54,035 nucleotides of DNA from assembly GCF_002095395.1 (NCBI RefSeq), contig NZ_MJEI01000068.1, positions 1 through 54,035 of the forward strand, in the 5' to 3' direction. Made by a program: the position numbers and the translations under genes. The notes beneath the pieces were generated by a model. The model was not told the DNA's origin. It saw only the letters and a list, made by a program, of their open reading frames with translations, and ran no database searches. The stretch is from Williamsia sp. 1135 (lineage in GTDB: Bacteria > Actinomycetota > Actinomycetes > Mycobacteriales > Mycobacteriaceae). Positions 4,214-21,370 of this stretch are shown one piece after another. Each line of letters starts with the position of its first letter. Positions within the stretch are counted from its first letter, which is position 1.

Positions 4214-7200
4214 GTGGACGCGTTCGGTGTGCTTGCGAAGGTTTTGGACGACTACCGGTCCTTCGTCTCGGGGTTTCTGAATATCAAGGACCCTTCCGTC
4301 AAAGCGAAGGTCGAAAGTGAGATAGCGAACGGTCTGCTTTGGCCTCAGCCCTGGCTCGCGCTCAACCCAGCATTCGAGCCCGGAGGCACCGTCAGTGAGC
4401 TCGTTGACTCTGGCGTGCTGCACCCCGCCAACCGCGAGATCTTCCGTGCCCGCACTGATGAGGATCCTTTCGGACGGGAGATCGCTTTCCACAGACACCA
4501 AAGCGATGCGTTCTCCACAGCTAAGCGCCGTGAATCCTACGTTCTGACTACGGGAACCGGATCGGGAAAATCGATGGCCTACATCGTCCCGATTGTTGAC
4601 CGCGTGTTGCGGGAGGGCAGCGGTGATGGTGTCCGGGCAATCGTCGTCTATCCAATGAACGCCCTGGCCAACAGCCAACGCGGAGAGCTGGAGAAGTTTC
4701 TCGGGAAAGACAAACCGAAGGTTACGTTCGGTCGCTACACTGGCCAGGAAAAGCGCACCGAGCGCGAAGCAATTTTAGCTAACCCGCCGGACATACTACT
4801 CACCAACTACGTGATGCTCGAACTCATGCTTACCCGGCCGCGGGAACGCTCGGCTCTGATCACTAGCGCCGCGAATCTGTCCTATCTCGTACTCGACGAG
4901 CTTCACACCTACCGCGGGCGACAGGGCGCTGACGTCGCTATGCTCATCCGTCGCCTCCGCGGCGCGGTCGGAGTCACCGACCTGCAGTGCATCGGAACCA
5001 GCGCCACCCTCGCGGGACCCGGCACCAGAGCGGAACAGCGCCTAGAGGTCGCTGAACTAGCCACGAGAATCTTCGGCACCGAAATCCCGGCCGAAAACGT
5101 CATTGGCGAAACACTCCGGCGCGCGACAACCGGCCGAACCGACAACACAGAATTAACTGCCAGACTCGCTGTGGAAGCTCCGTCAAACTGGGATGAACTC
5201 CATCGAGATCCCTTGGCGATCTGGACCGAAGAAACCTTCGGACTTCGCGATGACGATGAAGGCAAACTCGCCAGGCAGGTGCCAACCCGGCTGAAAGACG
5301 CCGCGTCGGTACTCGCCGAACTCACTGGCGTCGTCCCCGCAGTCTGCGAAGATCGTCTCCGCGAGCTGCTGCTGGCTGGTTCGAAGGCGCGAGATGAAAG
5401 CGATCGACCGCTATTCGCCTTCAAGCTTCACCAGTTCATCGGCAAAGGCGATACTGCCTACGCCACACTCGAGAGCCCCGAGAGCCGCTACCTAACAACT
5501 CAATACCAACGCAGTGCACCTGTGGGGGCCTCTGGTCAGCCGCTGTTTCCTTTGGCGTTCTGCCGCGAGTGCGGACAAGACTATTTGGTGGTCAACCTCG
5601 ATCGAGGTGGCGAAAACTTCAGTCCTCGAACTCTTAACGGTGGACGCGGCGAACAAGCCGAAGCCACTGGACTACTTCTGATCACCGAAACACCGTGGCC
5701 AGATGTGCACGATCCAGCCCTGCTCAAGCTGGTGCCGGACGATTGGATCATTGAGACCTCTGGTTCCCGCACACTGGACACCGGGCGCCGCACGCGACTC
5801 CCGCGAGGCGTCCGCGTCGACTCATTCGGAACGATCACCGACGACGGACTGACCGCAGCGTTCTTTGAAACTTTGCATTTTTGCCCTAGCTGCAAAACGA
5901 GTTACGAAAGTTCCAGACAGTCCGAGTTCTCCCGCGTGTCTAGCTTGGGCACCGAAGGGCGTGCTAGCGCCGTGACCGTGCTGTCGCAGGCAGTGGTCCG
6001 CACACTGAAGGCAGAAACAGATCTGGATGACGAGGCCCGAAAGTTCTTGGCCTTCTCAGACAACCGGCAGGACGCAAGCCTGCAGGCCGGCCACTTCAAC
6101 GACTTCGTGTCGGTCGGCCTCGTCAGGTCAGCGCTGTACCGAGCCGCACTCGACCAGCAAGAGCGAGACCCCGAAGAACCGCTAACCGACGAAGACCTTG
6201 GTCCTCGAGTGGTCAAGGTCCTCGGCGGTACTCTCGCCGATTTCGCGAAGAACCCCGAGGTCGAATACGCGGCGAAGAAAAAGGTCGCCAGCGCATTGCG
6301 TGACTCGGTCGCTTACCGATTGTGGGCCGATCTACAACGCGGTTGGCGCATCACGATGCCGAACCTGGAACAAACCGGTCAGCTGCGACTGTCGTACGCC
6401 GGTATCGATGAATTGGCCGCGGACCAACCAAAGTGGGCGGATCTTGGTCAGCCGCTGGCCGGCGCTGAACCCGAGACCCGCCGTCAGATCATGGGAGTCC
6501 TGCTCGACGAGCTCCGTCGACACATCTGTATCGAATCCGACTATCTCTCCGAAGAGCGGTACGACAGCATCAAACGAGCGAGCCAAGAGTGGCTCCGGCC
6601 CCCATGGGCATTGACCGATGACACCGGCATTTATGCCGGAACCGCCTATGCGGGAAGCAGACCCAAGTTTGCCGGCACTGGTGCGGACCTGCACATCTCA
6701 GGTCTGGGCAATTACGGTCGGTGGCTTCGCCGCCCCGATCGTTTCCCGCTATATGACCATCCCCTCAAACCGGCCGATGCCGACGGATTGATCTCAAGCT
6801 TGCTCACCCTGATGGCCAGGGTGGGAATCCTCGCGAAGATCGTCGAGAAGAACCGTCCCCTCGGATACCGGGTCCATGCAGGAATTATCGAATGGCATGC
6901 CGGGGACGGCGAATACCGCGCACCGGACCCGATCCGCGGAAACCAGACTCAGGGCAGGGTCAACCCGTTCTTCCGTAGCTTCTACGCCGAAACAGCCACC
7001 GGTCTCGTCGGTCTCGAGGCGCGCGAGCACACTGCGCAGGTCACTGCCGAGTTACGTCAAGACCGGGAGATCCGGTTCGGTGATGCCACGTTGCCGGTGC
7101 TCTACTGCTCACCGACGATGGAGCTCGGCGTCGACATTAAGAGTCTGAACGTAGTGGGAATGCGCAACGTCCCCCCGACGCCCGCCAATTATGCGCAACG

Positions 7201-9364
7201 TTCCGGCCGCGCAGGACGCTCCGGACAGCCCGCCGTCGTCCTGACTTACTGCTCCACCGGAAACGCGCATGACGCCTACTATTTCGGGCGCAGCCAGGAC
7301 ATGGTCGCCGGCGCGGTGGCCCCACCGCGGCTCGAACTGGGAAACCAAGACCTCGTCCGCGCGCATGCGCATGCCATCTGGCTGGTGATCTGCGATCTGG
7401 ATCTCAAATCCAGCATGGTCGATCTCCTCGATGTCGATGCACCCGGACAGCCCCTGCGCGATGACGTGCGCTCGAAGATCGACTCGACAACCCACGCCGG
7501 CCGTGCCATCGCCGCAATCAGTGCGGTACTGACTGCCGCCTCCGAGGTCACCAGCGCCCCCTGGTGGCATGCCGACTGGATTGAAGAGACCGTCAAACGC
7601 GCATCGATACGGTTCGACCGCGCTGCGGATCGCTGGCGGGGCCTCTACCGCGAATCCCTGGGCGAACTCGACAGCGCCAACGACATCCTCAAGAACATCG
7701 GTGCCTCAGAGCCGTCGAAACGGCAAGCCCGCGGACGCATTGCCGAGGCGAGAGCCGCACTGGACCTTCTCAAAGGTCAGATCGACGATGTCAACCAGGG
7801 AGATTTCTACACCTACCGATATTTCGCCTCTGAGGGATTCTTGCCGGGCTACTCGTTCCCCCGTCTTCCGCTATCGGCGTTCATCCCCGCAGAACGACGA
7901 ACCAAGAACGGGCAGGGCGACTACGTACAGCGGCCTCGGTTCCTCGCGATTAGCGAGTTCGGGCCGGGAGCGTTTATCTATCACGAGGGCGCCCGCTATG
8001 AGGTAAACCGCGTAAGCCTGCCCGCCCGCGAAGACGGCAGTGGCGTGAATATCACCGAGATAAAGCGATGCGAATCCTGCGGGTACATGCACGATCTGAA
8101 CGGACCAACCAGTCACGAGATCTGCGACCACTGCGGCTCGGCCTCGCTGCTTACCATGAGCAAGATGATGCGGCTTCTCGCCGTCAAAACCCGGCGCCGC
8201 GACCGAATCAGTGCTGACGAGGAAGAACGGCAGCGCGCCGGCCACGAAATCGTCACCTCAATCCGGTTCGAACCACACGGCGAACGCGCCGGACAGCTCA
8301 CCAGCACGCTGACGGTAGACGGTGACACCATTGCCACGATCACCTACGGAGATACGGCCCTCATTCGCCGGATGAACGTAGGCCTACGTCGACGCAAAGA
8401 CAAGGACATCAAAGGCCACTTACTCGACACCCTCGAGGGGAAATGGGCTCGCGAGAGTGACCTACTGAAGAACGACGGGGCAGCCAGTGCCACCGACGGT
8501 GATCGTGTACAGAGAATCGTTCCGTACGTCGAAGATCACCGAAACGCGCTCTTGATGTATCTATCCGCCACCATTCCCGACGAGCAGCGGATGGCAGCCA
8601 TGTACGCGCTGAAACGGGCGATCGAGGCCGTATACCAGCTCGAAAGCAACGAACTCGCAGTCGAGCCAATGCCCGGCGGATCCACACCGGACGCCTGGTC
8701 CCGACTCATGTTCTTCGAGGCCGCAGAGGGTGGTGCGGGCGTGCTGAGGCGATTGGCCACCGAACAACACCAGGTGCGTGCAGTCGCCAGGAAGGCAATT
8801 GAAATTTTGCATTACGACCCCGATACCGGCGAGGACCTGGGCAAAGCCAGTCATGCGGTAGAGGAATGCGCCCAGGCTTGTTATGACTGCTTGCTATCGT
8901 ATGGCAATCAGTGGGACCACCAACTGCTGGACCGGCACTGCGTGATCGAAATACTTCAGCAGTTGACCACTGCGACAATGGATATCGGTAGTGGCGGCGA
9001 GGAACGCGCCGACGTATTGACTCGCCTCGAGGGACCTAGTAACAGCCTCGAAAGGAGCTTCCTTCGGTTCCTCGACGAACACGGATATCGGCTGCCAGAC
9101 GATGCGCAGCAGCTCGTCGATGACTATTACGTCCGACCCGACTTCGCGTTTCACACTGACGGCGGCGACGTAGCAATTTTTGTGGACGGCCCCGTGCACG
9201 ATTCGGACCACCAGAGCCAGAAAGATGAGCAGGCACGGATGAAGCTCGAAGACGAGGCTGGATGGCTTGTCCTACGTTTCCATTATGCGGACGCAGAAGC
9301 CGGGTGGCATGAGACGGTGTCTGGACATCCCTCCGTATTCGGCAAGGGCAGGGCTGGGGCGTGA
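4214..9364 (+). CDS. DEAD/DEAH helicase with DUF1998 region and Vsr-like nuclease end
   Basis: This very large (1716 aa) protein is a DNA helicase or translocase fused to accessory domains. Visible parts in order: Walker A TTGTGSGKS (about 112-120), DELHTY motif II (about 227), GTSATL motif III (about 262), Cys pairs CRECGQDY (about 455) and CPSCKTSY, motifs V and VI SPTMELGVDI (about 965) and QRSGRAGRSG (about 994), another zinc ribbon CESCGY...CDHCGS (about 1285), a DUF1998/MZB-type end EAAEGGAGVLRR (about 1502) with CYDCLLSYG, and a last domain with RPDFAF, AIFVDGPVHD and GWLVLRFHY (about 1640-1700) like Vsr/DUF559 nucleases. The architecture recalls DrmA/DrmB of DISARM or DruE of Druantia, in one chain. 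The GTG start follows GGGGG. The end overlaps the next gene by 4 bp. Confidence 0.88.
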   Translation: MDAFGVLAKVLDDYRSFVSGFLNIKDPSVKAKVESEIANGLLWPQPWLALNPAFEPGGTVSELVDSGVLHPANREIFRARTDEDPFGREIAFHRHQSDAFSTAKRRESYVLTTGTGSGKSMAYIVPIVDRVLREGSGDGVRAIVVYPMNALANSQRGELEKFLGKDKPKVTFGRYTGQEKRTEREAILANPPDILLTNYVMLELMLTRPRERSALITSAANLSYLVLDELHTYRGRQGADVAMLIRRLRGAVGVTDLQCIGTSATLAGPGTRAEQRLEVAELATRIFGTEIPAENVIGETLRRATTGRTDNTELTARLAVEAPSNWDELHRDPLAIWTEETFGLRDDDEGKLARQVPTRLKDAASVLAELTGVVPAVCEDRLRELLLAGSKARDESDRPLFAFKLHQFIGKGDTAYATLESPESRYLTTQYQRSAPVGASGQPLFPLAFCRECGQDYLVVNLDRGGENFSPRTLNGGRGEQAEATGLLLITETPWPDVHDPALLKLVPDDWIIETSGSRTLDTGRRTRLPRGVRVDSFGTITDDGLTAAFFETLHFCPSCKTSYESSRQSEFSRVSSLGTEGRASAVTVLSQAVVRTLKAETDLDDEARKFLAFSDNRQDASLQAGHFNDFVSVGLVRSALYRAALDQQERDPEEPLTDEDLGPRVVKVLGGTLADFAKNPEVEYAAKKKVASALRDSVAYRLWADLQRGWRITMPNLEQTGQLRLSYAGIDELAADQPKWADLGQPLAGAEPETRRQIMGVLLDELRRHICIESDYLSEERYDSIKRASQEWLRPPWALTDDTGIYAGTAYAGSRPKFAGTGADLHISGLGNYGRWLRRPDRFPLYDHPLKPADADGLISSLLTLMARVGILAKIVEKNRPLGYRVHAGIIEWHAGDGEYRAPDPIRGNQTQGRVNPFFRSFYAETATGLVGLEAREHTAQVTAELRQDREIRFGDATLPVLYCSPTMELGVDIKSLNVVGMRNVPPTPANYAQRSGRAGRSGQPAVVLTYCSTGNAHDAYYFGRSQDMVAGAVAPPRLELGNQDLVRAHAHAIWLVICDLDLKSSMVDLLDVDAPGQPLRDDVRSKIDSTTHAGRAIAAISAVLTAASEVTSAPWWHADWIEETVKRASIRFDRAADRWRGLYRESLGELDSANDILKNIGASEPSKRQARGRIAEARAALDLLKGQIDDVNQGDFYTYRYFASEGFLPGYSFPRLPLSAFIPAERRTKNGQGDYVQRPRFLAISEFGPGAFIYHEGARYEVNRVSLPAREDGSGVNITEIKRCESCGYMHDLNGPTSHEICDHCGSASLLTMSKMMRLLAVKTRRRDRISADEEERQRAGHEIVTSIRFEPHGERAGQLTSTLTVDGDTIATITYGDTALIRRMNVGLRRRKDKDIKGHLLDTLEGKWARESDLLKNDGAASATDGDRVQRIVPYVEDHRNALLMYLSATIPDEQRMAAMYALKRAIEAVYQLESNELAVEPMPGGSTPDAWSRLMFFEAAEGGAGVLRRLATEQHQVRAVARKAIEILHYDPDTGEDLGKASHAVEECAQACYDCLLSYGNQWDHQLLDRHCVIEILQQLTTATMDIGSGGEERADVLTRLEGPSNSLERSFLRFLDEHGYRLPDDAQQLVDDYYVRPDFAFHTDGGDVAIFVDGPVHDSDHQSQKDEQARMKLEDEAGWLVLRFHYADAEAGWHETVSGHPSVFGKGRAGA

Positions 9365-12222
9365 CAGTCACCGATTTCCCTGCCGGCACGCTCATCAACG
9401 CCCGCGGCCGCGATTGGCTCGTCCTCCCCGGCGCATCCGAGGGAACGATCCTCGCCCGGCCCCTCGGCGGCCGCGACGACGAAACAACAGTGCTGCTACC
9501 GCAATTCGATAATCCGAAAGCGGCGATTTTCGACTCCCCTACAGTTGAGGATCGTGGTGACGCCGCTCGCGCCCGATTGCTCCGAGATGCTCTGCGGCTT
9601 TCATTCCGGGCCACTTCGGGTCCATTCCGATCCTTCGCCCAGCTGGCCGTAACCCCCCGGAACTACCAGTTGGTGCCCCTGATGATGGCCACCGCTCAGG
9701 AAACAACGCGTCTGCTTATCGCGGACGGTGTCGGTGTCGGCAAGACCGTCGAAGCCGGACTGATCGCCGCGGAACTTCTTGCCACCGGTGACGCGCAACG
9801 CCTCGCGGTGCTCTGTTCCCCACAGCTTGCCCCCCAATGGCAAACGGAACTGCGCAGCAAGTTCGGGATCAAGGCAGAGTTGCTGTTGCCCTCGACGGCG
9901 AACCGGCTCAAAGTGCCGTGGGGTTCGACCGTCTACGAGCAATATCCGTACTTGATCATCTCCACCGACTTCATCAAACAGCGCAGCCGTCGCGACGAAT
10001 TCGCGTTGAAATGCCCCGAACTGGTCATCGTCGACGAAGCCCACACCTGCATCGCGCCGACTACTGCTGGGTCGAGTCAGGCGCACCAGCGGTACACGTT
10101 GCTCCGCAAACTCGCAGATGATCCAGCCAGACATCTCCTGCTACTCACCGCCACACCGCACAGTGGCGACGACGGTGCCTGGCAATCGCTTGTCGGGTTG
10201 CTCGACAACAGGCTCGGGGAGCTCCCCGCCGATCTGTCCGGACCCCAGCGCGACGAAGACCGTAAACTGCTCGCTCAGTTCCTCATCCAGCGTCAACGCG
10301 CCGACATCCGCGAATATTTGGATGAGGACACACCCTTCCCGAAACGGGAACGGGCCGAGGAAAGCTACAAGCTAACCCCCGAATACAGGGGCCTATTCGA
10401 CAAAGTCATGCGCTTCGCCCGCGAACAGGTTGCCGATCCGTCCCTGAACAACGTGCACCAACGCGTGCGGTGGTGGTCGGCCATCGCGCTGCTGCGCTCG
10501 ATCGCTTCGAGTCCCGCCGCCGCTGAGCAGACCCTGCTCAACCGCTCCGAACTCAGTGCCAGCCGGACGACGGAAGACGCGGACTCCATCGCCGCACCCC
10601 GCGTCCTTGATGTGGATCTCGACGATGCCGTCGAAGGCGATGACACCGCCCTCGGCGCCGACACCTTCGAGAGTGACGGCCCGGACGGGTCGGCACGCCG
10701 CCGCCTACGCGAATTGGCTGACATCGCAGGATCATTGAAGGGTGTCAAGGGTGATGCGAAGCTCAAACGCCTGATCGTGCTCCTGGCGGAACTTCTCGCC
10801 GAGGGTTATCACCCAATCGTCTTCTGCCGGTACATCCCCACCGCCGAATATCTGGCCGAACACCTCGGCGCGGCATTGACGAAAAAACACCGCAGCCTGA
10901 GAGTCGAATCGGTCACCGGCAGCTTGCCACCAGAAGAACGGCAAACTCGGGTCTCCGCGCTCACCGCCCACGACGGACCACGATTGCTGATCGCCACCGA
11001 TTGCCTCTCCGAGGGCGTGAACCTGCAAGACGGATTCACCGCAGTGGTGCACTACGACCTCGCGTGGAACCCCACCCGACACGAACAACGCGAAGGCCGC
11101 GTCGACAGATTCGGTCAACGCGCCGATATCGTCCGCGCGATCACCTACTACGGCGTTGACAACGGCATCGACGGAGTAGTCCTCGACGTCCTGATCCGTC
11201 GGCACGAACGCATCCGCCGCAGTACCGGGGTATCGGTGCCGATCCCCGTCGACTCGACCACAGTCATGACCGCGATCTGGGAGTCTCTCCTGTTGCGCGG
11301 CAACGAGACCGACCAACTCGCCCTTGATTTGGGGTCAGCCACCTCGAGTGCTGTAACCGATGCCGTGGAAATGCATTGGACCGATGCTGCGGAACGAGAG
11401 AAGGTATCGCGTTCGAGGTTCCGGCAGGCATCTCTGAGTCCCGACGCCGTCGCCGAGACACTCGCCGACGTCCGACGCTCCCTCGGCGGCCCCGTCGACG
11501 CCGAAGTGTTCGTCCGTGACTCCCTGACCCTGCTCTCCGGGCAACTGAGCGAGACCGCCGACGGTTTCGCCGCCCGCATCGACACCCTCCCACCTGCCGT
11601 CCGCGAACAACTACCGCCATCGAAGAACCCGATCCTGCAGTTCCACCGGTCCTTCCCGGTTCCGGCCGGCGATCACGTTCTGAGTCGCACTGATCCCACC
11701 GTCGAGTCGATCGCACGCTACGTCCTCGACGCGGCCCTCGATCCTGAATTGCCCCCCACCCAGCGGCCGGCCCGACGCGCCGGTGTCATCCGCACCACCA
11801 GTGTGGAGAAGGTCACGACACTGCTCGTCGTCCGCTTCCGGCTCGAACTGATCATCCCCGGGGCCAAGACCACGATCACCCAGGTCGCCGAGGATGCCCA
11901 GTTCCTTGCCTTCACCGCCAGCGTCGGCACTCTGTCCTGGCTCGAGGAGTCCGCAGTCGAAGACCTGCTCGCCGCGCGTCCCACCGGAAACGTCGCTGAC
12001 GAGCTCGCCCGCACCCAACTCGACCGGATCCTGGGCCGTCTCGACGGCACCGTCGACCACCTGACCAGCCGAGGCGAGGCGCTCGCCGCCGCCGCCGTGG
12101 CGGATCACCGGAAGGTGCGAAGGAGCAGCAAAACTGGGGTGAAAGGTATACGCGCACGACTACTTCCACCACCGGACGTCCTCGGCGTCTACGTCTATCT
12201 CCCCGATCGGAGCGCATCGTGA
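9361..12222 (+). CDS. SNF2/RapA-type helicase (DrmD-like)
   Basis: This 953-aa superfamily 2 ATPase probably translocates on DNA as part of the complex encoded by this operon. Motifs: Walker A DGVGVGKTVEAG (122-133), VIVDEAHTC (about 222), LLLLTATPHSGDD (about 260) as motif III, and the C-terminal helicase half with PIVFCRYIPTAEYLAEHL, SEGVNLQDG (about 550) and EQREGRVDRFGQ (about 576) as motif VI. The first 100 residues and last 250 are accessory. This layout matches the SNF2-like DrmD proteins of class 1 DISARM and RapA-like enzymes. The GTG start overlaps the upstream TGA (GTGA), and the stop overlaps the next gene the same way, so all three genes are likely translationally coupled. Confidence 0.88.
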   Translation: MTVTDFPAGTLINARGRDWLVLPGASEGTILARPLGGRDDETTVLLPQFDNPKAAIFDSPTVEDRGDAARARLLRDALRLSFRATSGPFRSFAQLAVTPRNYQLVPLMMATAQETTRLLIADGVGVGKTVEAGLIAAELLATGDAQRLAVLCSPQLAPQWQTELRSKFGIKAELLLPSTANRLKVPWGSTVYEQYPYLIISTDFIKQRSRRDEFALKCPELVIVDEAHTCIAPTTAGSSQAHQRYTLLRKLADDPARHLLLLTATPHSGDDGAWQSLVGLLDNRLGELPADLSGPQRDEDRKLLAQFLIQRQRADIREYLDEDTPFPKRERAEESYKLTPEYRGLFDKVMRFAREQVADPSLNNVHQRVRWWSAIALLRSIASSPAAAEQTLLNRSELSASRTTEDADSIAAPRVLDVDLDDAVEGDDTALGADTFESDGPDGSARRRLRELADIAGSLKGVKGDAKLKRLIVLLAELLAEGYHPIVFCRYIPTAEYLAEHLGAALTKKHRSLRVESVTGSLPPEERQTRVSALTAHDGPRLLIATDCLSEGVNLQDGFTAVVHYDLAWNPTRHEQREGRVDRFGQRADIVRAITYYGVDNGIDGVVLDVLIRRHERIRRSTGVSVPIPVDSTTVMTAIWESLLLRGNETDQLALDLGSATSSAVTDAVEMHWTDAAEREKVSRSRFRQASLSPDAVAETLADVRRSLGGPVDAEVFVRDSLTLLSGQLSETADGFAARIDTLPPAVREQLPPSKNPILQFHRSFPVPAGDHVLSRTDPTVESIARYVLDAALDPELPPTQRPARRAGVIRTTSVEKVTTLLVVRFRLELIIPGAKTTITQVAEDAQFLAFTASVGTLSWLEESAVEDLLAARPTGNVADELARTQLDRILGRLDGTVDHLTSRGEALAAAAVADHRKVRRSSKTGVKGIRARLLPPPDVLGVYVYLPDRSAS

Positions 12223-15200
12223 GTGGACTGTCCGCCTTCAAATCCGTACGGACGGTCGGCACCGTCCTACCGAGCGAGGCACTTACACGGTCCTCCGACC
12301 TGCGTATGCCGGGGCAGAAGGCCGCGGACTACCAACTCCCGCCCGGAATGGCCGTCAATGCGGCCATCGCCCGCGCCTGGGAAGCGATGCTCGCAGCCCA
12401 CCGCGAGTGGACCCAGTCACTCGATCGTCTGCCACCGGAAGATCCGGCGACCAAACTCACCCGCGAGAAGTGGCTGCTCCCGCTGCTCTACGAACTCGGG
12501 TGGGGACGCCCCGAGGTGGTCGGCGGTGGCCTCGATGTGGCACCTGGACTCGGGGAAACCTCCCCACCACACTTCCCGATCTCCCACCGCCTGACCTGGC
12601 CCAACTCCACACAATTCGCGGTATGGGTGCCGTTGCACCTGCTGGGCGCCGGCGTCCCGCTCGACGGCAGAACCGAGGGTGTGACCGCGAGGGCACCCCA
12701 GTCGATGGTGCAGGACTACCTCAACCGCGAGGACCGCGCATTGTGGGCACTGCTGTCGAACGGTCGGACACTGAGACTGCTGCGCGACGCATCGACACTG
12801 GCCAAACAGTCCTACGTCGAGTTCGACCTCGATGACATCTTTACCAATCAGCGCTACGCAGATTTCCGGCTGCTGTTCCTCACTGCACATGCAAGCAGAT
12901 TCGCCCCACGCGCCGAGAGCACGGAACCGGTTGAGAGCGACACAGAATCAGCGGACTCAGGGCTCAAACCAGAGGACTGTTGGCTCGAAACCTGGCGCAC
13001 CACCGCGATCGAAGATGGCGCCCGGGCACTACTCACCCTCCAACAAGGCGTCGCGACCGCACTACAACACCTCGGTACAGGCTTCGTGAGCCACCCAGCG
13101 AACACCGCACTCCGCGACACCCTCGCGCATGCCCAGGACGCCGACCGCGACCTGCATCGCGCGTTGCTGCGCATCGCCTATCGGCTCATCGTCCTGTTCG
13201 TCGCCGAAGACCGGGATCTACTCCACACCCTGGCCACCGAATCCGACGCCCGCACGCTCTACACCGTGCACTTCTCCACAGCACGATTGCGACGCATGGC
13301 CAGCACACGGGGCGGTAGCCGCCACACCGATCTTTGGGAAGCACACCAGATCGTCACCGACGCCGTCGCCGGCGAAGGACAGCCCGTACTCGGGCTGAAC
13401 GGGTTGGGCGCGACTTTGTTCGCGCGCGAGAACCTCAGCGTGCTCGACGGCGCGAAACTGCCCAATAGTAGTTTCCTGGCCGCCATTAAAGCTTTGGCCG
13501 AGATCGACGACCCGGCGACGGGGATCCCACGGCCAGTCGACTACCGCAATCTCGACAGTGAAGAACTCGGCGGAATGTACGAAGGCCTGCTGGCTTTCAC
13601 TCCCCGCTACGACGCCGCGGCCCGCACATTCACCCTCGAGATCGCCGCCGGCAACGACCGCAAGAAGTCCGGTTCCTATTACACCCCTTCCGATCTCATC
13701 GCACTCGTTCTCGACGAGGTACTCAACCCGCTGATCGACGAAGCCATGCGAGCACCCGACCCCGAGGCGGCGCTACTTGCTCTCACCGTGGTGGACCCGG
13801 CGGTGGGCTCTGGCCATTTCGTTGTCGCTGCGGCCCGTCGTTTGGCCGCCGCAGTGGCAACGGTGCGCACCGGAGACACCGAACCCAACCCGATCGACCT
13901 CAGGGCCGCCACCGCGGATGTCATCGAACGCTGTATTTACGGTGTCGACCTCAACGACCTCGCTATCGAGATAACCAAAGTTGCTCTCTGGCTCGAAGCC
14001 TTCGATGCCAATCGCCCCTTCCCGTTCCTTGACGCACATTTCAAAGTGGGCAACGCGCTCCTCGGGACCACCCCAGAACTGTTACGCCACAACATTCCTG
14101 ACTCTGCTTTCACTGTTCTCGGCGATGACGACAAAACATGGACTAGCAAGCTCAAAGCCCGCAACAAAGCCGAACGTGCCGCGATCGATGCCCAGCTGAC
14201 ATTCAGCTTCGGTCACGAAACACTGAATGTCGAAACCATGAAGTTCACCAAAGCCGCACGCGAAGCAGACACCGGCCGCGCCGCTGACCTCAGGCGAATT
14301 CGGGCACGAGCCGATGCATGGCGCACCCTCGAAGCCGACCCTGAAATGGTTGCGGCGAAACTCGTCGGCGACGCATGGTGCGCAGCATTCGTGCAATCTA
14401 AGACAAAAACGGTTGGACCCCAGCCGGAGAATTTCGAGAGCTCCGGGCAGGGCATAACCCACAACACGGTACGCCAGTTCGTCGACAACGTCGACGCAGT
14501 CCCCCCAGCTATCACCGAATCGGTGCGGCAACTCGCCCGTCAGTACCGCTTCTTCCACTGGCACCTTGAGTTCCCCGGCATCTTCACCGTCCCCAACGAC
14601 GGGGCCGCCGCCGACCCGATCACTGGTTGGACTGGAGGGTTTTCGTGCGTCGTCGGCAACCCACCCTGGGAGCGAGTAAAGATTCAAGACAAGGAATTCT
14701 TCGCCAATATTGGGCGCAACGACATCGCCGACTCGAAGACTGCCGCCATTCGCAAGAAAATGATTGAGACGCTGGCTGAAATCGATCCTGACCTGTACAC
14801 GAGCTATTGCGACGCGCTACGGCAATCCGATGGCACAAGCCACCTCTTATTAAAAAGCGGCCGTTACCCGCTTACGGGAAAAGGCGATGTTAATACCTAC
14901 AGTGTCTTCGCCGAGACAATGCGCACCATCGCAGCGCCTAACGGAATCGCCGGAATCATTACACCCACCGGACTGGGCACCGACAAGACCACGGCACCAT
15001 TCTTCTCCGACACCCTTAGCAACAAGCGACTTCTGGCTTTCTATGACTTTGAGAATGAAGCAAAGATATTTGCCGAGGTCCACCATTCATTTCGGTTCGC
15101 AATCACCGCAATGGCTGGTCGGCAGCGTGCCGCAGCGCGTAGCCGGTTTGCATTTCTGACCAGGCACCTCGCTGACGTTCCTTCACGCCGCTTTGAACTC

Positions 15201-16340
15201 GCCCCTGACGAGGTTCTCGCAATGAACCCCAACACCGGAACTCTGCCGATGTTCCGCACACGCGCCGATGCTGACATCACGCTCGGCATATACCGCCGCC
15301 ACCCCGTGCTTATCCACGATAACGCCCCCGACGGGAATCCTTGGGGCCTGTCCTTCGCCCGACTCTTCGACATGGCGAATGACTCGGGTCTGTTCCGCCA
15401 ACCGGAAGACCTGGCCGCTGCAGAATTCAACGGCTGGTCGTACGATGAAAATGGCCAAGAGTACGTTCCCCTCTATGAGGCGAAAATGCTCGGTCATTTC
15501 GACCATCGTTTCTCTACGTATCGTGATGCGACCCAGGCCCAACTGAATGTTGGGTCGCTCCCGCGCCCCACAGACGAACAACATGGCGATCCCTACCTAG
15601 AAGTGCAAGCTCGCTACTGGATTGAGCGGCCGAAAGTCGCTAAATTCTTACGCGGCAAATGGGATCGAGGTTGGTTGCTCGGCTGGCGAGACATAGCCCG
15701 AGCTAGTGACTCACGGACAATGACGCCCGCAGTTCTCCCCTACACCGCAGTCGCGGGCGGGTTTCCGCTTGCTTTTCCTCGATGCGGGAGCGACGCAGCC
15801 CTACTCCAATCCGTTTGGAGTAGCTTGCCCTTCGATTTCGTCGTCCGTCAGAAGAACGCTGGAACCCATCTCAACATGACTCTGATGCGACAGTTCGCAT
15901 GTCCCACTCCTTCCACCTTCGCAGGTCCTACGGGTTGGCAATCCGGTTGCACGTTGGCCACCTGGGTCCTTCCGTATGCTCTGGAGTTGTCGTACACCTC
16001 GTGGCGGCTTCAGCCGTATGCCCGGGAACTCGGAGATCATGGGGCACCATTCAAGTGGAACTCGGAACGACGAACACTGCTCCGTGCCGACCTAGACGCC
16101 GCTTTCATGCACGTCTACGGCCTCACCCGCTCAGAAACAGAGCACGTTCTCGACTCATTCCCCGTTGTCCGCAAATACGAAGAACGTGTCTGCGGACACT
16201 ACCGCACGCGGGCCCTAGTCCTGGAGGCGTACGACCGATTGGCGGCCGCTATTGCGCGCGGCGGCACAGGCTGGGAGTCGTTGGCAGGGGCACCGGCAGG
16301 TCAGGGACCTCGCCATTCAATAAAACGAGCATTACCTTAA
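12219..16340 (+). CDS. Eco57I-class adenine-N6 DNA methyltransferase
   Basis: This 1373-aa protein very probably transfers methyl groups to adenine to mark host DNA. It has the class I gamma-type order: a long helical N-terminus, the GSYYTPSDLI lead-in, AdoMet motif I DPAVGSGHF (about 526-534), YGVDLNDLAIEI, and catalytic motif IV VVGNPPWERV (about 811-820, NPPW). The remaining 500 residues would hold the target recognition domain. The size matches the large BREX PglX or DISARM DrmMI type rather than a small solitary methylase. No nuclease motif is evident, so any restriction would come from its neighbours. The GTG start gives a 4-bp GTGA overlap with the SNF2 gene. GC seems to dip from about 14680 to 15120. 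Confidence 0.9.
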   Translation: MSGLSAFKSVRTVGTVLPSEALTRSSDLRMPGQKAADYQLPPGMAVNAAIARAWEAMLAAHREWTQSLDRLPPEDPATKLTREKWLLPLLYELGWGRPEVVGGGLDVAPGLGETSPPHFPISHRLTWPNSTQFAVWVPLHLLGAGVPLDGRTEGVTARAPQSMVQDYLNREDRALWALLSNGRTLRLLRDASTLAKQSYVEFDLDDIFTNQRYADFRLLFLTAHASRFAPRAESTEPVESDTESADSGLKPEDCWLETWRTTAIEDGARALLTLQQGVATALQHLGTGFVSHPANTALRDTLAHAQDADRDLHRALLRIAYRLIVLFVAEDRDLLHTLATESDARTLYTVHFSTARLRRMASTRGGSRHTDLWEAHQIVTDAVAGEGQPVLGLNGLGATLFARENLSVLDGAKLPNSSFLAAIKALAEIDDPATGIPRPVDYRNLDSEELGGMYEGLLAFTPRYDAAARTFTLEIAAGNDRKKSGSYYTPSDLIALVLDEVLNPLIDEAMRAPDPEAALLALTVVDPAVGSGHFVVAAARRLAAAVATVRTGDTEPNPIDLRAATADVIERCIYGVDLNDLAIEITKVALWLEAFDANRPFPFLDAHFKVGNALLGTTPELLRHNIPDSAFTVLGDDDKTWTSKLKARNKAERAAIDAQLTFSFGHETLNVETMKFTKAAREADTGRAADLRRIRARADAWRTLEADPEMVAAKLVGDAWCAAFVQSKTKTVGPQPENFESSGQGITHNTVRQFVDNVDAVPPAITESVRQLARQYRFFHWHLEFPGIFTVPNDGAAADPITGWTGGFSCVVGNPPWERVKIQDKEFFANIGRNDIADSKTAAIRKKMIETLAEIDPDLYTSYCDALRQSDGTSHLLLKSGRYPLTGKGDVNTYSVFAETMRTIAAPNGIAGIITPTGLGTDKTTAPFFSDTLSNKRLLAFYDFENEAKIFAEVHHSFRFAITAMAGRQRAAARSRFAFLTRHLADVPSRRFELAPDEVLAMNPNTGTLPMFRTRADADITLGIYRRHPVLIHDNAPDGNPWGLSFARLFDMANDSGLFRQPEDLAAAEFNGWSYDENGQEYVPLYEAKMLGHFDHRFSTYRDATQAQLNVGSLPRPTDEQHGDPYLEVQARYWIERPKVAKFLRGKWDRGWLLGWRDIARASDSRTMTPAVLPYTAVAGGFPLAFPRCGSDAALLQSVWSSLPFDFVVRQKNAGTHLNMTLMRQFACPTPSTFAGPTGWQSGCTLATWVLPYALELSYTSWRLQPYARELGDHGAPFKWNSERRTLLRADLDAAFMHVYGLTRSETEHVLDSFPVVRKYEERVCGHYRTRALVLEAYDRLAAAIARGGTGWESLAGAPAGQGPRHSIKRALP

Positions 16341-16388
16341 AGGCGCCACACTTCCACTAGCCCAAATCACCCAGGGAGGAAGCGGGAG

Positions 16389-18260
16389 ATGACGATCGTC
16401 ACTGACCGTATCGATGGCAAGCCCAAGACTATCAAGGAATTATTCACCGGTCGAAAGTACGGACTTAAGTACTACCAGCGTGAGTACACGTGGTCGCAGG
16501 CCAATCTCGCGGAGCTACTCAATGATCTTTCCGGGCGCTTTCTCGATGAATACCAGCCCGAGCATGAGCTGAAACAGGTTGCGTCCTATCGCCCCTACTT
16601 CCTCGGGCCGATCGTCACGGCGCAGGAGGATGCTACATCGTTTCTGGTTGATGGTCAGCAGAGACTGACGACTTTGACTCTTCTTCTTGCGCATCTGATT
16701 CACTTGCATGGCGACCCCGATGGCAACATCAGGCCGCTGATTTACTCGAAGAAGTTCGGCGAACTATCCTTCAACCTGGACATTCCGCAGCGCGCCGAGG
16801 TTATGCACGCAATTCTCGAAAACGGAACCTTCAATGTCGATGCGACGCGCGATGAATCAGTACAGCGCCTTTGGCGCAGATTCAATGACTTCCCGGTCTT
16901 GTTCCCGGCGGACATTGCCGAACCATCGACCTTGCAGTTTTTCGTCGAATGGCTGCTCGAGAGAGTAGTCGTCGTCGAGATTTCAGCGACCGATCAGGCC
17001 ATGGCGCTCGAAATGTTCGAGACCATGAACGATCGTGGTGCCCGCCTGACGCCGACGGACATGCTGAAAAGCTACTTACTTGCCCACATGCCCGAAACCG
17101 ATATCCCCGCCGCCAACACCCTGTGGCGCGAGCGCATGTCCGAGTTGGCAAGTGTCGAAAGCACAGCGGATCGCGAGTTTCTCAAGGCTTGGCTGCGGGC
17201 AAAATATGCCGAAACGATGCGCGAAAGAAAACCCGGTGCAGCACAGCGTGACTGGGAGAACATCGGTACCACTTACCAGAAATGGGTCCGCGACAACGGG
17301 CCCCGCCTCGGCCTGAGTGGGCCCACAACTTACGCGACGCTGGTCAATCGGGATTTCGAGGTGATGAGCCGCCGCTATCGCGACCTGCTCGTTGCGGCGG
17401 GAAGCCCTCAACCGGGACTCGATCACGTTCACTACCTGTCCTGGACCGGGTTTACGCTCCAGTATCCTGTCATCCTTGCGGCGGTCACGCCTGATGATGA
17501 CGATGCCACGTTCCAGGCGAAGGCTGAAGTGATCGCGGGCTTCTTGGAGCGGTTGATCGTCGGCAGAATTGTTAATTACCGGAACTATTCATACGCTCAG
17601 ATGACCTACTCGATGTTCACTCTGATTAAGGAGATCCGGGATCTTCACGTCGACGCACTTCAGGCGCTTCTTCTTGACCGAATCGAGAACGGCGACGATC
17701 TCGATTCTTTCGATGCAATCGCGAACTTTCGACTAAACGGTACCAATAGGGGTAGGGTGCGTTTCCTTCTGGCGAGAATCACCGCATGGATCGACGAGCA
17801 GTGCAGAACTGGCCAGGCCTTTCACACATACATGAGCAAAGACACGAAGGATCCTTACGAAATCGAGCACGTCTGGGCGGACCATCCAGAGCGTCATCCT
17901 GAAATCGAGAATGAGTACGTGTTCGCTGAGACGCGTAATCGATTCGGCGGGCTGTTGTTACTACCGAAAAGCTTTAACGCAAGCTACGGAGACATGGAGT
18001 ATGTGAAAAAGGTTAAACACTACGCTGGTCAAAACCTCCTAGCCCGCTCACTCCATCCCAGCGCTTACGACCACAACCCCTCATTTGCAAAATTCAGGTT
18101 TAAGAAATCGCTTGTCTTCAACCCTCACCCGGAGGAGTACTCGCGCGAAGTGATGGACGAACGGCAGGGCCTGTATAGGCAGCTAGCGGAACTTGTCTGG
18201 CATCCCGACGAATTCGGTATCAATTCAACTTTGGCCGAAGGATGCAATGACGTGGAATAA
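16389..18260 (+). CDS. GmrSD-type DUF262/DUF1524 nuclease
   Basis: This 623-aa single-chain GmrSD-like protein belongs to a family in which the DUF262 part binds and hydrolyses nucleotides and the DUF1524 part is a His-Me finger (HNH) nuclease, often cutting modified DNA. Visible here: YQREYTW (29-35), the signature DGQQR (88-92), FETMNDRGARLTPTDMLKSY (DUF262 end), then EIEHVWADH (about 491-499) and NRFGGLLLLPKSFN (about 517-530), the DUF1524 His and Asn. A strong AGGGAGGA (16373-16380) precedes the ATG. The gene begins 48 bp after the methylase stop in the same orientation, so it is likely in the same operon. It may cut incoming modified DNA or be the effector of the operon; which is inference. 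Confidence 0.88.
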   Translation: MTIVTDRIDGKPKTIKELFTGRKYGLKYYQREYTWSQANLAELLNDLSGRFLDEYQPEHELKQVASYRPYFLGPIVTAQEDATSFLVDGQQRLTTLTLLLAHLIHLHGDPDGNIRPLIYSKKFGELSFNLDIPQRAEVMHAILENGTFNVDATRDESVQRLWRRFNDFPVLFPADIAEPSTLQFFVEWLLERVVVVEISATDQAMALEMFETMNDRGARLTPTDMLKSYLLAHMPETDIPAANTLWRERMSELASVESTADREFLKAWLRAKYAETMRERKPGAAQRDWENIGTTYQKWVRDNGPRLGLSGPTTYATLVNRDFEVMSRRYRDLLVAAGSPQPGLDHVHYLSWTGFTLQYPVILAAVTPDDDDATFQAKAEVIAGFLERLIVGRIVNYRNYSYAQMTYSMFTLIKEIRDLHVDALQALLLDRIENGDDLDSFDAIANFRLNGTNRGRVRFLLARITAWIDEQCRTGQAFHTYMSKDTKDPYEIEHVWADHPERHPEIENEYVFAETRNRFGGLLLLPKSFNASYGDMEYVKKVKHYAGQNLLARSLHPSAYDHNPSFAKFRFKKSLVFNPHPEEYSREVMDERQGLYRQLAELVWHPDEFGINSTLAEGCNDVE

Positions 18261-18282: not shown

Positions 18283-18308
18283 GGTTGCTCTGCGACTAAC
18301 TAGCAACC
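18283..18308. terminator. Possible convergent terminator hairpin
   Basis: GGTTGC (18283-18288) pairs with GCAACC (18303-18308) across a 14-base loop, between two convergent genes. The stem is short, there is no T-run, and it overlaps the stop of the minus-strand gene, so this is a weak call. Confidence 0.2.
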
Positions 18309-21300
18309 ACCGACCCACTCGCGAATACGTCAGCCGGCATGGGGCGGTGCAGATTCCAGGTAATCGAGATCGGCCGCTCACCTTGGTGGCTGACGAGATC
18401 CACCTTGCCCAGGAAGATGAACGGCTCGGCGCCGATGTCACCGTTGGGCCGGTCGCGAACGAACAGCAAGACCTTGCCATCCGCGCCGCTCGTCCCGAGG
18501 AGCCGTCGACCAAGCTTGGAATCAACTGTGGTGTTGTTCGGAGACTCCCAGTGAAACGTCTCGCGCGATATCGGGAAGTCGCGGTACATCGTGGTGGGAC
18601 TGAACTGCCCTTCGTCTTTGTGAAGGTTGACGAACAACGCGCCAGTCGCACCGTCATCCGTCCAGACGACACCGGTTGCTTGTCCGTAGGCCTTGCGCGT
18701 CAACGACGCCCACCCGATGGCAGCCAGGACCTCTTCGCGTCGATAGTGCACGTGGGTAAATAGCGGGAGGTCGTCGGCATCCATCGGTTCCGGGACATGT
18801 CTGATCTGGTCAGTAGTGACGTCGAGGATCTGACCAATCTCCTCGCAGATGGCGGGGTTGGCCTGCAGATGCCGGAGACCGGCGTCGTAGTCATCGAGGT
18901 CGCCGCGGTCAGGCCACAGGAGGAAGAACAGCATGCGGGCGTATGCCTGTTCACGGGGTGACAGCTCGTCGTAGCGCGGGCCGCCCTGTTGGGCGATCTT
19001 TCGGTACACGCCTGCCCGCTCGAGATCATCGACGTGCGTCATGATCCGTATCCGCCGGAGCAGAGCTTCTTCGCCGGGGCCCGTTTCAGGCGTTGCGATG
19101 TGGGCATCGCGGGCCAGTGCAGTCCAGGATTTGCCGGCGGTGCCCCCGTACACGTCGACTAGGTCGTGACCGGACTCTGTGAGGTACTCCTGCAGCGTGC
19201 GCGGCTTGTGCGAGGCGATGCTGGCGACGAGGTCAGCCCGACGGTTCAGGCGGATCGTTTGCTTGATGCTCTCGGTGATGATGTCCTGGGCAACTTTGTC
19301 GAGGACCAAGCGGCTACCGCCGGGGAGAAACGGGAAGTCTTCGCTGATCTCGTTCAGAAGTCGTCCACGGCTGGATCCAGTGAGTGCGCGAAACTTGTTT
19401 TCAAAGCGAAACTCTCGACGTTGTTGCCCAATGAAGTCGAGGACGGTCAGCACTGCTTTGGTCTTCGTGCGCCGAAGTCCGCGGCCCAGCTGCTGAAGGA
19501 AGATCGTCGCACTCTGCGTGGGTCGTAGTAGCAGGATGGTGTCGACGTCAGGGATGTCGAGACCTTCGTTGAAGACGTCCACGCCGAACAGACATTGCAC
19601 CTCGCCGGCCCTCAGATTGGCGAACGCTGCCGCGCGTTCGACGGGACTGGTATCAGCGGACACAGCCACCGATTTCACCCCTTGTTGGGTGAACCGATGA
19701 GCCATGTACTCCGCGTGCGCAATCGACACGCAGAAGCCGAGCGCACGCATCCTGGTGGGATCGCTGACTTTGTCACGCAGAGCTTGCAGGACCAGCCGGG
19801 TGCGGGCGTCGTTGCCGGTGTACAGGTTCGACAAATCGGTGATGCGGTAGTCGCCGCGCGACCAGGTGATCGATCGCAGGTCGGTGTTGTCAGCCACGCC
19901 GTAGTAATGGAACGGACACAGCAGGTCCTGCTCGAGCGCATCCCACAGCCGCAACTCGTAAGCGACGCGGCCGTCGAACCAGGCAAAGACGTCCCGGCCA
20001 TCGGTGCGTTCTGGGGTTGCGGTCAGACCGAGAAGCTCCGCTGGCCGGACATGGTTCAGCAGCCGCTTGTAGGTCGCTGCTTCGGCGTGATGAAACTCGT
20101 CGACGACGACCACATCGAACTGGCCTGGATCGATGCTGTCGAGTGCTGTCGCGTTCAGAGATTGAATGCTCGCGAAGACGTGCTTCCAGTCAGTAGGTCG
20201 GGCGCCACCCACGAAGAGTTCACCGAAGTTGGCGTCTGCGAGTACTTCTCGGTACATCCGAAGCGACTGTTCGAGAATCTCTTTGCGATGCGCCACGAAG
20301 AGCAGCGGAAGCCGTCGGCCCGCTCGATCGCACAAACCTCGGTAGTCCAGTGCTGCGACGACCGTCTTGCCGGTGCCCGTCGCCGCGACGACGAGGTTGC
20401 GGTGACGGTCGTGCACCTGCCGTTCGACGTCGAGAGCTTCGAGAATGCGTTCCTGATGCGGGTACGGCCGCACGTCGAGACCGGAAACCGTGAGCGTCTG
20501 CCGTCCCTGGGTATTGCCGCCGGCCTCTGCGAGCGCGCGGTCGAGTAGGTCGGCATCGGTGGACGGGTCGTAGTCTTTGAACGCTGGATCGTTCCAGTAG
20601 GTATCGAAGGTGGCTTCGAACTTCCTCACCAGGGAGGGAGTGCTGACACCTGATATCCGTACGTTCCACTCCAGCCCGTCGACCATCGCGGACCTCGAGA
20701 GGTTCGAGCTACCGACGTACCCGGTATCAAAGCCGCTACGGCGACGGAACAACCACGCCTTGGCGTGCAAACGGGTGGAGGCAGTCTCGTAACGGATCTT
20801 GACGTGTGCGCCGTACTTGGTGACCAGAGTGTCGAGGGCACGGCGCTCGGTAGCGCCGCGGTACGTCGTCGTCAAGACGCGCGGACGGATGCCGCGTTCG
20901 TGTAGAGCGGCCAGTTGCTGGCCGAGCACCGAGATCCCCGCGAACCGGATGAAGGCGCACAGAAGATCCACCTGGTCGGCACTTGCGAGTTCATGCGCGA
21001 CCTCGCCGGCCATGTTCGACTCACCCTTGGTGTTGGTGAGCAGGGCGACTTCCGAGAGTGGAGTTGCTGGCCGCAGCAGCTTAGGTTCGTCGACGCCGCG
21101 GAGTGCCACCAGGAGTTCGGGTCGAAGCACTTCGTCGTCGATTTCGCCGAGGTAACCCAGAAGCTCGTTGGCTCGTGCAAGCTGGTCCGCCGGCCTGAGT
21201 GCGCTGAGATGTCGAACAAGCGCGTCGGCGAGATGCCGGCTGAGCACCGTCGGGGCATCACCGTCGGCGATGTCGGCAAAATCGGGAACGAGCGGTTGGT

Positions 21301-21370
21301 CCTGCACATCCGCGTCGACTCGTCGCGTATGGAGCAACTCGTAAATACCGCGGGGGAGTGGTTCGTTCAC
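18296..21370 (-). CDS. PLD nuclease-helicase-DUF3427 protein
   Basis: This 1024-aa protein combines a phospholipase-D-type nuclease with an SF2 helicase. The PLD half carries the HxK motif LHAKAWLFRRR (about 201-211), followed by YVGSSNLSRSA (about 218-228). The helicase half has YPHQERIL (303-310), Walker A VAATGTGKTVVAAL (328-341), VVVDEFHHAEA (421-431), GLTATPERTDG (448-458), then FNEGLDIPDVD and QQLGRGLRRTKTKAVL (motif VI). The last 300 residues match the DUF3427 region that accompanies this domain pair, including QEYLTESGHDL and HVHYRREEVLAAIGW. Such proteins are recurrent in defence islands; the mechanism is not established. The start is GTG at 21370, 119 bp from the divergent ATPase gene. 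It converges on the GmrSD gene. Confidence 0.9.
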   Translation of the reverse strand: MNEPLPRGIYELLHTRRVDADVQDQPLVPDFADIADGDAPTVLSRHLADALVRHLSALRPADQLARANELLGYLGEIDDEVLRPELLVALRGVDEPKLLRPATPLSEVALLTNTKGESNMAGEVAHELASADQVDLLCAFIRFAGISVLGQQLAALHERGIRPRVLTTTYRGATERRALDTLVTKYGAHVKIRYETASTRLHAKAWLFRRRSGFDTGYVGSSNLSRSAMVDGLEWNVRISGVSTPSLVRKFEATFDTYWNDPAFKDYDPSTDADLLDRALAEAGGNTQGRQTLTVSGLDVRPYPHQERILEALDVERQVHDRHRNLVVAATGTGKTVVAALDYRGLCDRAGRRLPLLFVAHRKEILEQSLRMYREVLADANFGELFVGGARPTDWKHVFASIQSLNATALDSIDPGQFDVVVVDEFHHAEAATYKRLLNHVRPAELLGLTATPERTDGRDVFAWFDGRVAYELRLWDALEQDLLCPFHYYGVADNTDLRSITWSRGDYRITDLSNLYTGNDARTRLVLQALRDKVSDPTRMRALGFCVSIAHAEYMAHRFTQQGVKSVAVSADTSPVERAAAFANLRAGEVQCLFGVDVFNEGLDIPDVDTILLLRPTQSATIFLQQLGRGLRRTKTKAVLTVLDFIGQQRREFRFENKFRALTGSSRGRLLNEISEDFPFLPGGSRLVLDKVAQDIITESIKQTIRLNRRADLVASIASHKPRTLQEYLTESGHDLVDVYGGTAGKSWTALARDAHIATPETGPGEEALLRRIRIMTHVDDLERAGVYRKIAQQGGPRYDELSPREQAYARMLFFLLWPDRGDLDDYDAGLRHLQANPAICEEIGQILDVTTDQIRHVPEPMDADDLPLFTHVHYRREEVLAAIGWASLTRKAYGQATGVVWTDDGATGALFVNLHKDEGQFSPTTMYRDFPISRETFHWESPNNTTVDSKLGRRLLGTSGADGKVLLFVRDRPNGDIGAEPFIFLGKVDLVSHQGERPISITWNLHRPMPADVFASGSVVAS

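Follow-up and report, generated by a model that had tools for sequence, protein, structure and literature searches.

ARMADA was described by Bell et al. (2025) as an anti-phage system (PMC12458937). According to that account, Type I generally consists of a YprA helicase, then a BrxHII-like helicase and then a PglX-like methylase, and it is abundant in Actinomycetota. Its YprA helicase combines a fused DUF1998 region (also named MZB, the MrfA Zn-binding domain), BrxA-like and beta-barrel zinc-module insertions, and a C-terminal nuclease of Vsr type that is predicted to be active (PMC12458937). In a Type II system, deleting any of the four genes abolishes protection, as do most helicase and methylase motif mutations, two mutants losing it only in part, and defence is non-abortive (PMC12458937). 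Here we analyse a stretch of 54,035 nucleotides from Williamsia sp. 1135 (contig NZ_MJEI01000068.1; hereafter the window), in which four open frames, all on the + strand between 4214 and 18260, encode in this order a YprA-type helicase, a SNF2 ATPase, a DNA methylase and a GmrSD endonuclease (genes 1 to 4). The sequence-only reading of this locus had suggested that the set could be a distinct restriction-type system. As judged from their sequences, genes 1-3 (4214-16340), with the fused helicase-DUF1998 chain and its Vsr-like nuclease, are instead ARMADA Type I as described in PMC12458937, a new member of a known system, and the locus as a whole looks like a new combination of known parts and not like a new kind of defence.

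The three-gene core and its placement

The assignment to ARMADA Type I follows from the helicase-first gene order, the position of the helicase as a sister of ArmC, and its architecture. Genes 1-3 follow the order helicase, BrxHII/SNF2 (RapA-like) ATPase, PglX-like methylase, as does Type I. To find the position of the helicase, 119 YprA proteins were placed in a tree whose root was set at an SftH-like helicase from the window's own genome; the references were a single ArmC and a single DruE (Druantia III) of E. coli ATCC 8739, and no DrmA was included. The helicase of the window groups with 96 relatives in a single clade (support 0.971), and E. coli ArmC, of ARMADA II, is the sister of this 97-member clade, with a joint support of 1.0. 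Outside lie E. coli DruE and 19 weaker YprA-type homologues from the window's bacterial family. ARMADA Type II itself, as found in E. coli ATCC 8739 (NC_010468, L163), has homologous ArmA, ArmB and ArmC genes; it differs from the window in its order, ArmA-B-C-D, in an ArmC of 2113 aa, and in the presence of ArmD (RelE + UvrD). Membership in Type II needs that strict order and was rejected, since the window has its helicase first and the ArmD profile found no match anywhere in it.

The architecture of gene 1 agrees with Type I in the fused DUF1998 region, and its C-terminus is a putative nuclease of Vsr type. Pfam recognises a DEAD core (aa 94-267), Helicase_C (933-1004) and the MZB domain (1463-1560), the last of these within the same chain as the helicase and scoring 35.5 bits against a cutoff of 24.2. 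The Walker A lysine K119 and the DELH motif (228-231) are invariant in 96/96 aligned sequences, as are the cysteines of CRECG (450-454) and CPSC (557-560), which may belong to the BrxA-like and zinc-module insertions, and the protein is 42.6% identical over its full length to a homologue from Deinococcus radiodurans. At its C-terminus there is an E...PD...D pattern, which we take to be that of the PD-(D/E)xK/Vsr group; the acidic residues E1613, D1643 and D1658 are kept in 83, 94 and 89 of the 96 aligned sequences. A Pfam scan of the whole protein gave no match to this region at E <= 0.01. Scanned alone, the window's domain matches DUF559 (E 0.001) and MTES_1575 (E 0.003), both under the curated cutoffs, and these two models were matched by 23 and 22, respectively, of 28 members at E <= 0.5. 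Among solved structures the nuclease profile matched E. coli Vsr best, with an E of 0.12, which is not significant.

Gene 2 carries helicase domains in Pfam, with SNF2-rel_dom at 21.8 bits, just below the cutoff of 24.9. It scores 876 bits over the full length with the PADLOC 'DpdE' model PDLC02853 and 258 bits with DrmD, and it is 26.7% identical to E. coli ArmA over 580 aligned columns. Its Walker A and DExH motifs are conserved across 78 aligned sequences. Gene 3 matches Eco57I (68 bits), N6_Mtase (28 bits) and also MmeI_Mtase in Pfam, and DrmMI (179 bits) in PADLOC; it possesses a SAM motif, DPAVGSG (aa 526-532), and an NPPW motif (814-817) that is present in 67/67 aligned sequences, and it aligns in two pieces, at 24-30%, with E. 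coli ArmB. The best models of PADLOC 2023 for the four genes are DruE, 'DpdE', DrmMI and HEC-06, none of which is a fitting name, and no NCBIfam model reaches its own cutoff for them. Identity with Hma (helicase-methylase-ATPase) was also considered and rejected: the HmaA model gives gene 2 only 185 bits against 876 for 'DpdE', and HmaB is described as an m5C methylase whereas gene 3 is of N6 type.

Genes 1-3 appear intact, with full-length matches to relatives. The junctions of genes 1/2 and 2/3 are overlaps of 4 bp, and gene 4 follows gene 3 after 48 bp. Both overlaps are present in all 12 close loci, the window included, in which the three genes were called, and the catalytic motifs (Walker A, DEAH-type, SAM and NPPW) vary little or not at all among the 96, 78 and 67 aligned sequences for genes 1, 2 and 3. 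For these reasons the layout of the locus is more than chance. The coordinates, lengths, overlaps and gap given by the sequence-only reading are all correct, and the domains it had named, namely a helicase and DUF1998 in one 1716-aa chain, a SNF2-like helicase, an adenine methylase and a GmrSD, were found by Pfam, the SNF2 domain just below its cutoff. Scans for promoters and terminators were uninformative, returning fewer sites than in shuffled sequence. The features of the operon are collected in Table 1.

Table 1. Genes and motifs of the ARMADA I-GmrSD locus (window coordinates)
Feature	Position	Strand	Basis
YprA-family (ArmC-like) helicase, 1716 aa	4214-9364	+	Pfam, tree
Vsr-like nuclease motifs E1613, PD1642-1643, D1658 within gene 1 (putative)	9050-9286	+	alignment
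SNF2/RapA-type ATPase, ArmA/BrxHII/DrmD-like, 953 aa	9361-12222	+	PADLOC, NCBIfam, alignment
PglX/ArmB-like DNA methylase, Eco57I/N6 type, 1373 aa	12219-16340	+	Pfam, PADLOC, alignment
Likely ribosome-binding site of the GmrSD gene, GGGAGG, 9 nt before ATG	16374-16379	+	read in sequence; inference
GmrSD-type (DUF262 + DUF1524) endonuclease, 623 aa, accessory type IV partner	16389-18260	+	Pfam, PADLOC

What stands behind the core

Conservation of the core was examined in 101 distinct loci, comprising 80 named loci, 17 further loci of the window's bacterial family, 3 plasmid loci and the window (104 were gathered and 3 duplicates dropped); the named loci were the top 80 among no fewer than 588 confirmed relatives, which biases them to near kin. 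Within 401 genomes of the family, 42 have a match to the helicase at E <= 1e-40. Nearly the whole query is covered in 22 of these, the window's own genome included, and the other 20 matches are partial or distant. In the viral collection, 5 loci have a relative of gene 1. The three core genes stand in order on one strand in 80/101 loci, and the remaining 21 contigs stop within 6.4 kb of the helicase gene. Among the latter, L041 offers 6.3 kb of sequence in which neither partner was found, and it may be a true exception. Further YprA-type helicases of the same bacterial family, 19 in number (L132-L150), lie outside the ARMADA I clade; some of them have SNF2 and methylase genes next to them, arranged divergently or in other ways.

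The methylase reaches the end of its contig in 7 of the 80 loci that have the core. The place 3' of the methylase was assessed in the 71 loci that have at least 1.5 kb after it, with 3.2 kb of downstream sequence inspected and most named loci holding only ~3 kb there; the names given below rest on one Pfam-scanned representative of each kind. McrB follows the methylase in 25/71 loci, in 19 with matches to both McrB and McrC and in 6 alone. An ArmD-like helicase is found in 5/71, alone in 2 and with a DUF262 protein in 3, and a DUF262 protein other than the window's GmrSD in 4/71, beside the ArmD-like protein in those 3 and alone in 1. A GmrSD of the window's family occupies this place in the window only, that is, in 1/71. 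The other 39 have none of McrB, ArmD-like protein, DUF262 protein or GmrSD within 3.2 kb of the methylase; counted among these are L115, with an ArmD-like gene at 3.7 kb, and L120 and L128, with McrB at ~5 kb. The GmrSD is thus an accessory, probably an exchangeable one, and not part of the ARMADA I core, and the notion that it always belongs to the set was rejected. The co-occurrence that the sequence-only reading had proposed to count holds for the core trio and does not extend to the fourth gene. As to that reading's own refuting condition, a match to a named system exists for three of the genes but not for the GmrSD, whose gene, 48 bp downstream, sets the locus apart from Type I as described. 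That reading had also supposed that GmrSD replaces a PLD protein. It does not do so: the parts of PMC12458937 that were consulted describe no PLD gene for ARMADA, and a GmrSD follows only 1 of the 71 cores assessed.

ArmD is described as a Type II gene (PMC12458937), and three of the ArmD-like proteins behind ARMADA I are 35.6-37.3% identical to E. coli ArmD over the full length. This RelE-UvrD-type protein lies 18 bp after the methylase in L116, L117, L037 and L038 and farther on in L033 and L115. The next gene after it encodes a DUF262 protein in L116 (753 aa) and in L037 and L038, where it is cut by the end of the stretch. In L162 (D. radiodurans R1 plasmid MP1) the ARMADA I core, its methylase annotated as two frames, is followed by an insertion sequence and, farther on, by a gene of the McrB family. 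The nearest plasmid relatives, from Rhodococcus (90.6% and 78.3%), have the methylase as the last gene, with no GmrSD in the stretch shown.

Gene 4 matches GmrSD_N (101 bits) and GmrSD_C (31 bits) in Pfam, both above cutoff, and HEC-06 is its best PADLOC model (115 bits). It is a full-length member of its family: D88-GQQR-92, E493-H494 and N530 are identical in all 19 aligned rows, in which one gene occurs twice and two rows are distant relatives. The DGQQR of DUF262 and the His-Me finger residues of DUF1524, expected of GmrSD type IV enzymes, are both present. Of 301 genomes of the window's bacterial family, 7, its own included, have a relative at E <= 1e-20, and the viral collection gave no pattern match for GmrSD. 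The surroundings of 26 relatives were viewed, from all 20 genomes with a match besides the window's own and from 6 among 24 plasmid records. The close set, 36-50% identical, consists of 14 genomes and 6 plasmids and contains 19 assessable members, the match in Synechocystis lying at the end of its record; six distant relatives (29-34%) were kept apart for comparison. For several relatives the upstream side alone was read, distances to partners were taken from stop-to-stop frames, and the models for partner genes came mostly from single proteins of the same loci and of E. coli, so that other kinds of methylase would be missed.

Methylation-type defence genes lie near 14 of the 19 close relatives: those of type I restriction-modification (RM) in 8, BREX-2 in 2, ARMADA II in 2, DISARM in 1 and another kind in 1. 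Eleven of the 19 share a strand with such a gene, ArmD included, and either overlap it or lie no more than ~150 bp away. The type I RM genes are found near the relatives in G149, G423, G573, G807, G951, G1025, Deinococcus radiophilus and Aeromonas caviae; in G951 the gene concerned is an HsdR at 3.6 kb, and in G1025 they are HsdS, at 2.4 kb, and HsdM, at 3.6 kb. BREX-2 PglW (1436 bits against a cutoff of 990) and PglX (1703.5 against 400) precede the GmrSD in G016, and the same two genes do so in G105 by similarity to the G016 proteins. In G128 (stretch L175) the GmrSD stands directly behind a complete ARMADA II ArmA-B-C-D, at 63 bp; in G121 ArmA and ArmB are followed by a SHOCT protein and then by the GmrSD. 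G226 presents DISARM DrmA (1003.5 against 950) and DrmB (456 against 240), then opposite-strand frames and an ArmD-GmrSD pair. The link to DISARM is a loose one, as its genes end 5.4 kb upstream of the GmrSD with those frames between. Aeromonas media has a SNF2/methylase cluster. No such partner was present in the stretch seen for G433, G657, G980, R. rhodochrous and Pantoea (5/19), and none of the other GmrSD relatives examined stands behind an ARMADA I core.

In a tree of 22 GmrSDs the partner types are mixed, with G128 and G226 as sisters (0.998) and G121 elsewhere, which indicates that the enzyme changes partners. The ArmD-GmrSD pair, with these sister GmrSDs, is seen both behind ARMADA II (L175) and downstream of DISARM DrmA-DrmB (L173), and it may move as a cassette.

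Proposed roles of core and GmrSD, and the rival explanations

The gene content, the family placement of the core, its intact catalytic motifs and the recurrence of this GmrSD family beside methylation-type systems are observed. Based on homology, genes 1-3 would use adenine methylation as a self mark and act on DNA without it; the idea of the sequence-only reading that the methylase may mark self agrees with what is published on ARMADA. The PglX/ArmB-like methylase would place N6-methyladenine on a host motif, and the SNF2 (ArmA-like) motor and the YprA-type (ArmC-like) helicase would engage incoming DNA that lacks this presumed mark. Most simply, the helicase-fused Vsr-like nuclease would then cut the unmarked DNA, and the cell would not be killed. 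Enzymes of the GmrSD family cleave DNA that contains modified cytosines, and the GmrSD here would attack phages that hide from the core by cytosine modification: its DUF262 domain would read the modification, NTP hydrolysis would switch on the DUF1524 nuclease, and by analogy the enzyme probably cuts phage DNA with altered bases. Core and GmrSD would thus serve as two complementary arms, as BREX and BrxU do. In the latter case (Picton et al. 2021, PMC8565348) a GmrSD-family enzyme likewise lies inside a methylase-based, host-marking system; BrxU cuts DNA containing 5mC, 5hmC or glc-5hmC, BREX handles unmodified phage, and BrxU covers phages missed by BREX. The two cases differ in the core, which is BREX there, and in the enzyme, BrxU being HEC-05 (PMC11411939) whereas the GmrSD of the window scores best with HEC-06. 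A parallel case is provided by TgvAB of V. cholerae, which sits inside a type I RM operon (PMC11411939). That the core is ARMADA Type I and that core and GmrSD divide the work in this manner is, in our judgement, likely.

Several observations weigh against this account. The placement in Type I is indirect by one step, being drawn from the sister relation to Type II, from gene order and from architecture; deeper in the tree, the branching of DruE and the remaining YprA proteins has low support (0.361). Experiments on ARMADA I were not found in the literature; those published concern Type II, which has the ArmD that is missing here. The sequence support for a Vsr-like assignment of the gene 1 C-terminus is weak, and the annotation of the 90.6% plasmid relative splits its SNF2 gene into two frames, so that this locus is no proof of a working three-gene core. 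As to the GmrSD, its family follows the ARMADA I core in the window alone of the 71 loci, and in the tree of 22 the window's enzyme is a lone branch and not a sister of those linked to ARMADA II.

Another explanation is that the GmrSD landed by chance behind ARMADA I in a defence island, with no functional link beyond location. We consider this somewhat unlikely, and it concerns only why core and GmrSD lie together, so that it overlaps with the account of two arms. It gains from the solitary occurrence among 71 ARMADA I loci, from the 5 close relatives that have no methylation-type partner in the stretch seen, from the further defence genes of the island, and from the six distant relatives, for which the upstream stretches read contained no partner other than one kinase-type match of 44 bits. 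It is weakened by the presence of methylation-type systems near 14 of 19 close relatives, 11 of them at the short distances given above, which argues that this GmrSD family is no random neighbour, and by the 25 ARMADA I loci in which McrB(C), also a type IV module, occupies that position. The best mechanistic rival would make the GmrSD the effector of one four-gene system, docking on the host m6A mark, becoming activated by NTP and nicking unmarked phage DNA in the manner of SspE. SspE has the same two domains as GmrSD (PMC10952713) and depends on a host mark, phosphorothioate (PMC9646914); SspE chains are among the five solved-structure matches of the GmrSD profile (E 1e-12), and most partner systems of the GmrSD family carry adenine-type methylases (HsdM/N6_Mtase or PglX/Eco57I). 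Against this, 70 of the 71 ARMADA I loci do without a GmrSD of the window's family, and the partners (type I RM, BREX-2, ARMADA II, DISARM) are too varied for one shared sequence mark to be likely. Moreover, BrxU acts alone and spared m6A-bearing host DNA (PMC8565348), and the models used recognised no methylase in the DISARM stretches L173 and L167. On balance, an SspE-like effector seems improbable.

Two described systems that share parts with the window were weighed as identities for the operon and rejected on architecture and on the YprA tree. DISARM class 1 likewise has a SNF2 ATPase, an adenine methylase, a YprA-type helicase and a DUF1998 region, and genes 2 and 3 do score with the DrmD and DrmMI models. 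The earlier description of a DISARM-like but differently built, methylase-containing defence operon is apt. In DISARM, however, the helicase and the DUF1998 part are separate genes and the PLD gene DrmC is typical (PMC12458937), whereas this operon has no separate DrmA or DrmB and no DrmC. The NCBIfam DrmD model gives gene 2 only 284 bits against its cutoff of 610, and gene 1 scores 352 bits with DruE3 compared with 49 for DrmA and is a sister to ArmC in the tree, which has no DrmA. A helicase with a PLD domain does lie at 18296-21370 on the other strand, and its best match is mREase_IV. A DISARM variant is extremely improbable. Druantia III resembles the window in its large YprA-family helicase with a fused nuclease, and the best PADLOC models of gene 1 are those of DruE. 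It differs in that it consists of two genes, DruE and DruH, with PLD nuclease domains in place of SNF2 and methylase genes (PMC13192584), and E. coli DruE, the single Druantia III reference, does not branch with the window's helicase and ArmC. We regard a Druantia variant as very improbable.

Part of this pattern was known. McrBC beside a DISARM-like cassette and GmrSD with type I RM, BREX and Hma clusters are on record: a 2015 paper described GmrSD close to type I RM (PMC4619093), GmrSD inside Hma clusters is reported in PMC11411939, and in some E. coli a GmrSD takes the place of McrBC (PMC12707154), the same exchange that is seen behind ARMADA I here. No report of GmrSD with ARMADA or DISARM was found in a literature search that was not exhaustive and did not cover supplementary files; neither "GmrSD" nor "DUF262" occurs in the main text of PMC12458937, and the pairing of GmrSD with ARMADA was not met in the available parts of PMC12707154, PMC12373910, PMC7641849 and PMC12409362. 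The combination of ARMADA I with GmrSD is accordingly a variant that we have not found in print. Besides correcting the call of a new system to ARMADA Type I, the present analysis adds that the place behind ARMADA I is taken by one or another type IV module (McrBC, GmrSD, DUF262) and that a single GmrSD family stands behind several unrelated methylation-based defences. This suggests a rule under which defences with adenine methylation as their self mark gain a partner directed at cytosine-modified phages. A bolder proposal is that ARMADA I loci keep one exchangeable 3' place for an arm against phages that escape the methylation check (McrBC, GmrSD, DUF262 or ArmD), and that one mobile GmrSD family plays this role behind four or more unrelated host-marking systems (type I RM, BREX-2, ARMADA I/II and DISARM), perhaps sensing the m6A mark of the system in question or its failure and not acting alone. 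We hold this to be rather unlikely.

Neighbouring genes

Other genes lie on both sides of the operon. Upstream, a DDE_5 transposase lies at the window edge (5-1351, - strand) and a DUF6615 protein at 2941-4005 (+). Downstream, in the region 18296-22035, a convergent gene on the - strand, 35 bp after the GmrSD stop, encodes a PLDc-ResIII-DUF3427 protein of 1024 aa; it matches PADLOC mREase_IV PDLC03659 with 1078 bits and is a possible second type IV enzyme of the island. A frame of 222 aa, with no Pfam or PADLOC match, overlaps this gene by 4 bp. At 21490-24320 (+) an SMC-like AAA ATPase of 816 aa shares a 4-bp overlap with a protein of 127 aa, and this pair gives weak mad3/LmuB matches of up to 85 bits. 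Relatives of the ATPase are found near the ARMADA I loci L120 and L125. Finally, a SIR2_2 protein of 492 aa at 25112-26590 (+) is ThsA-like at 100 bits.

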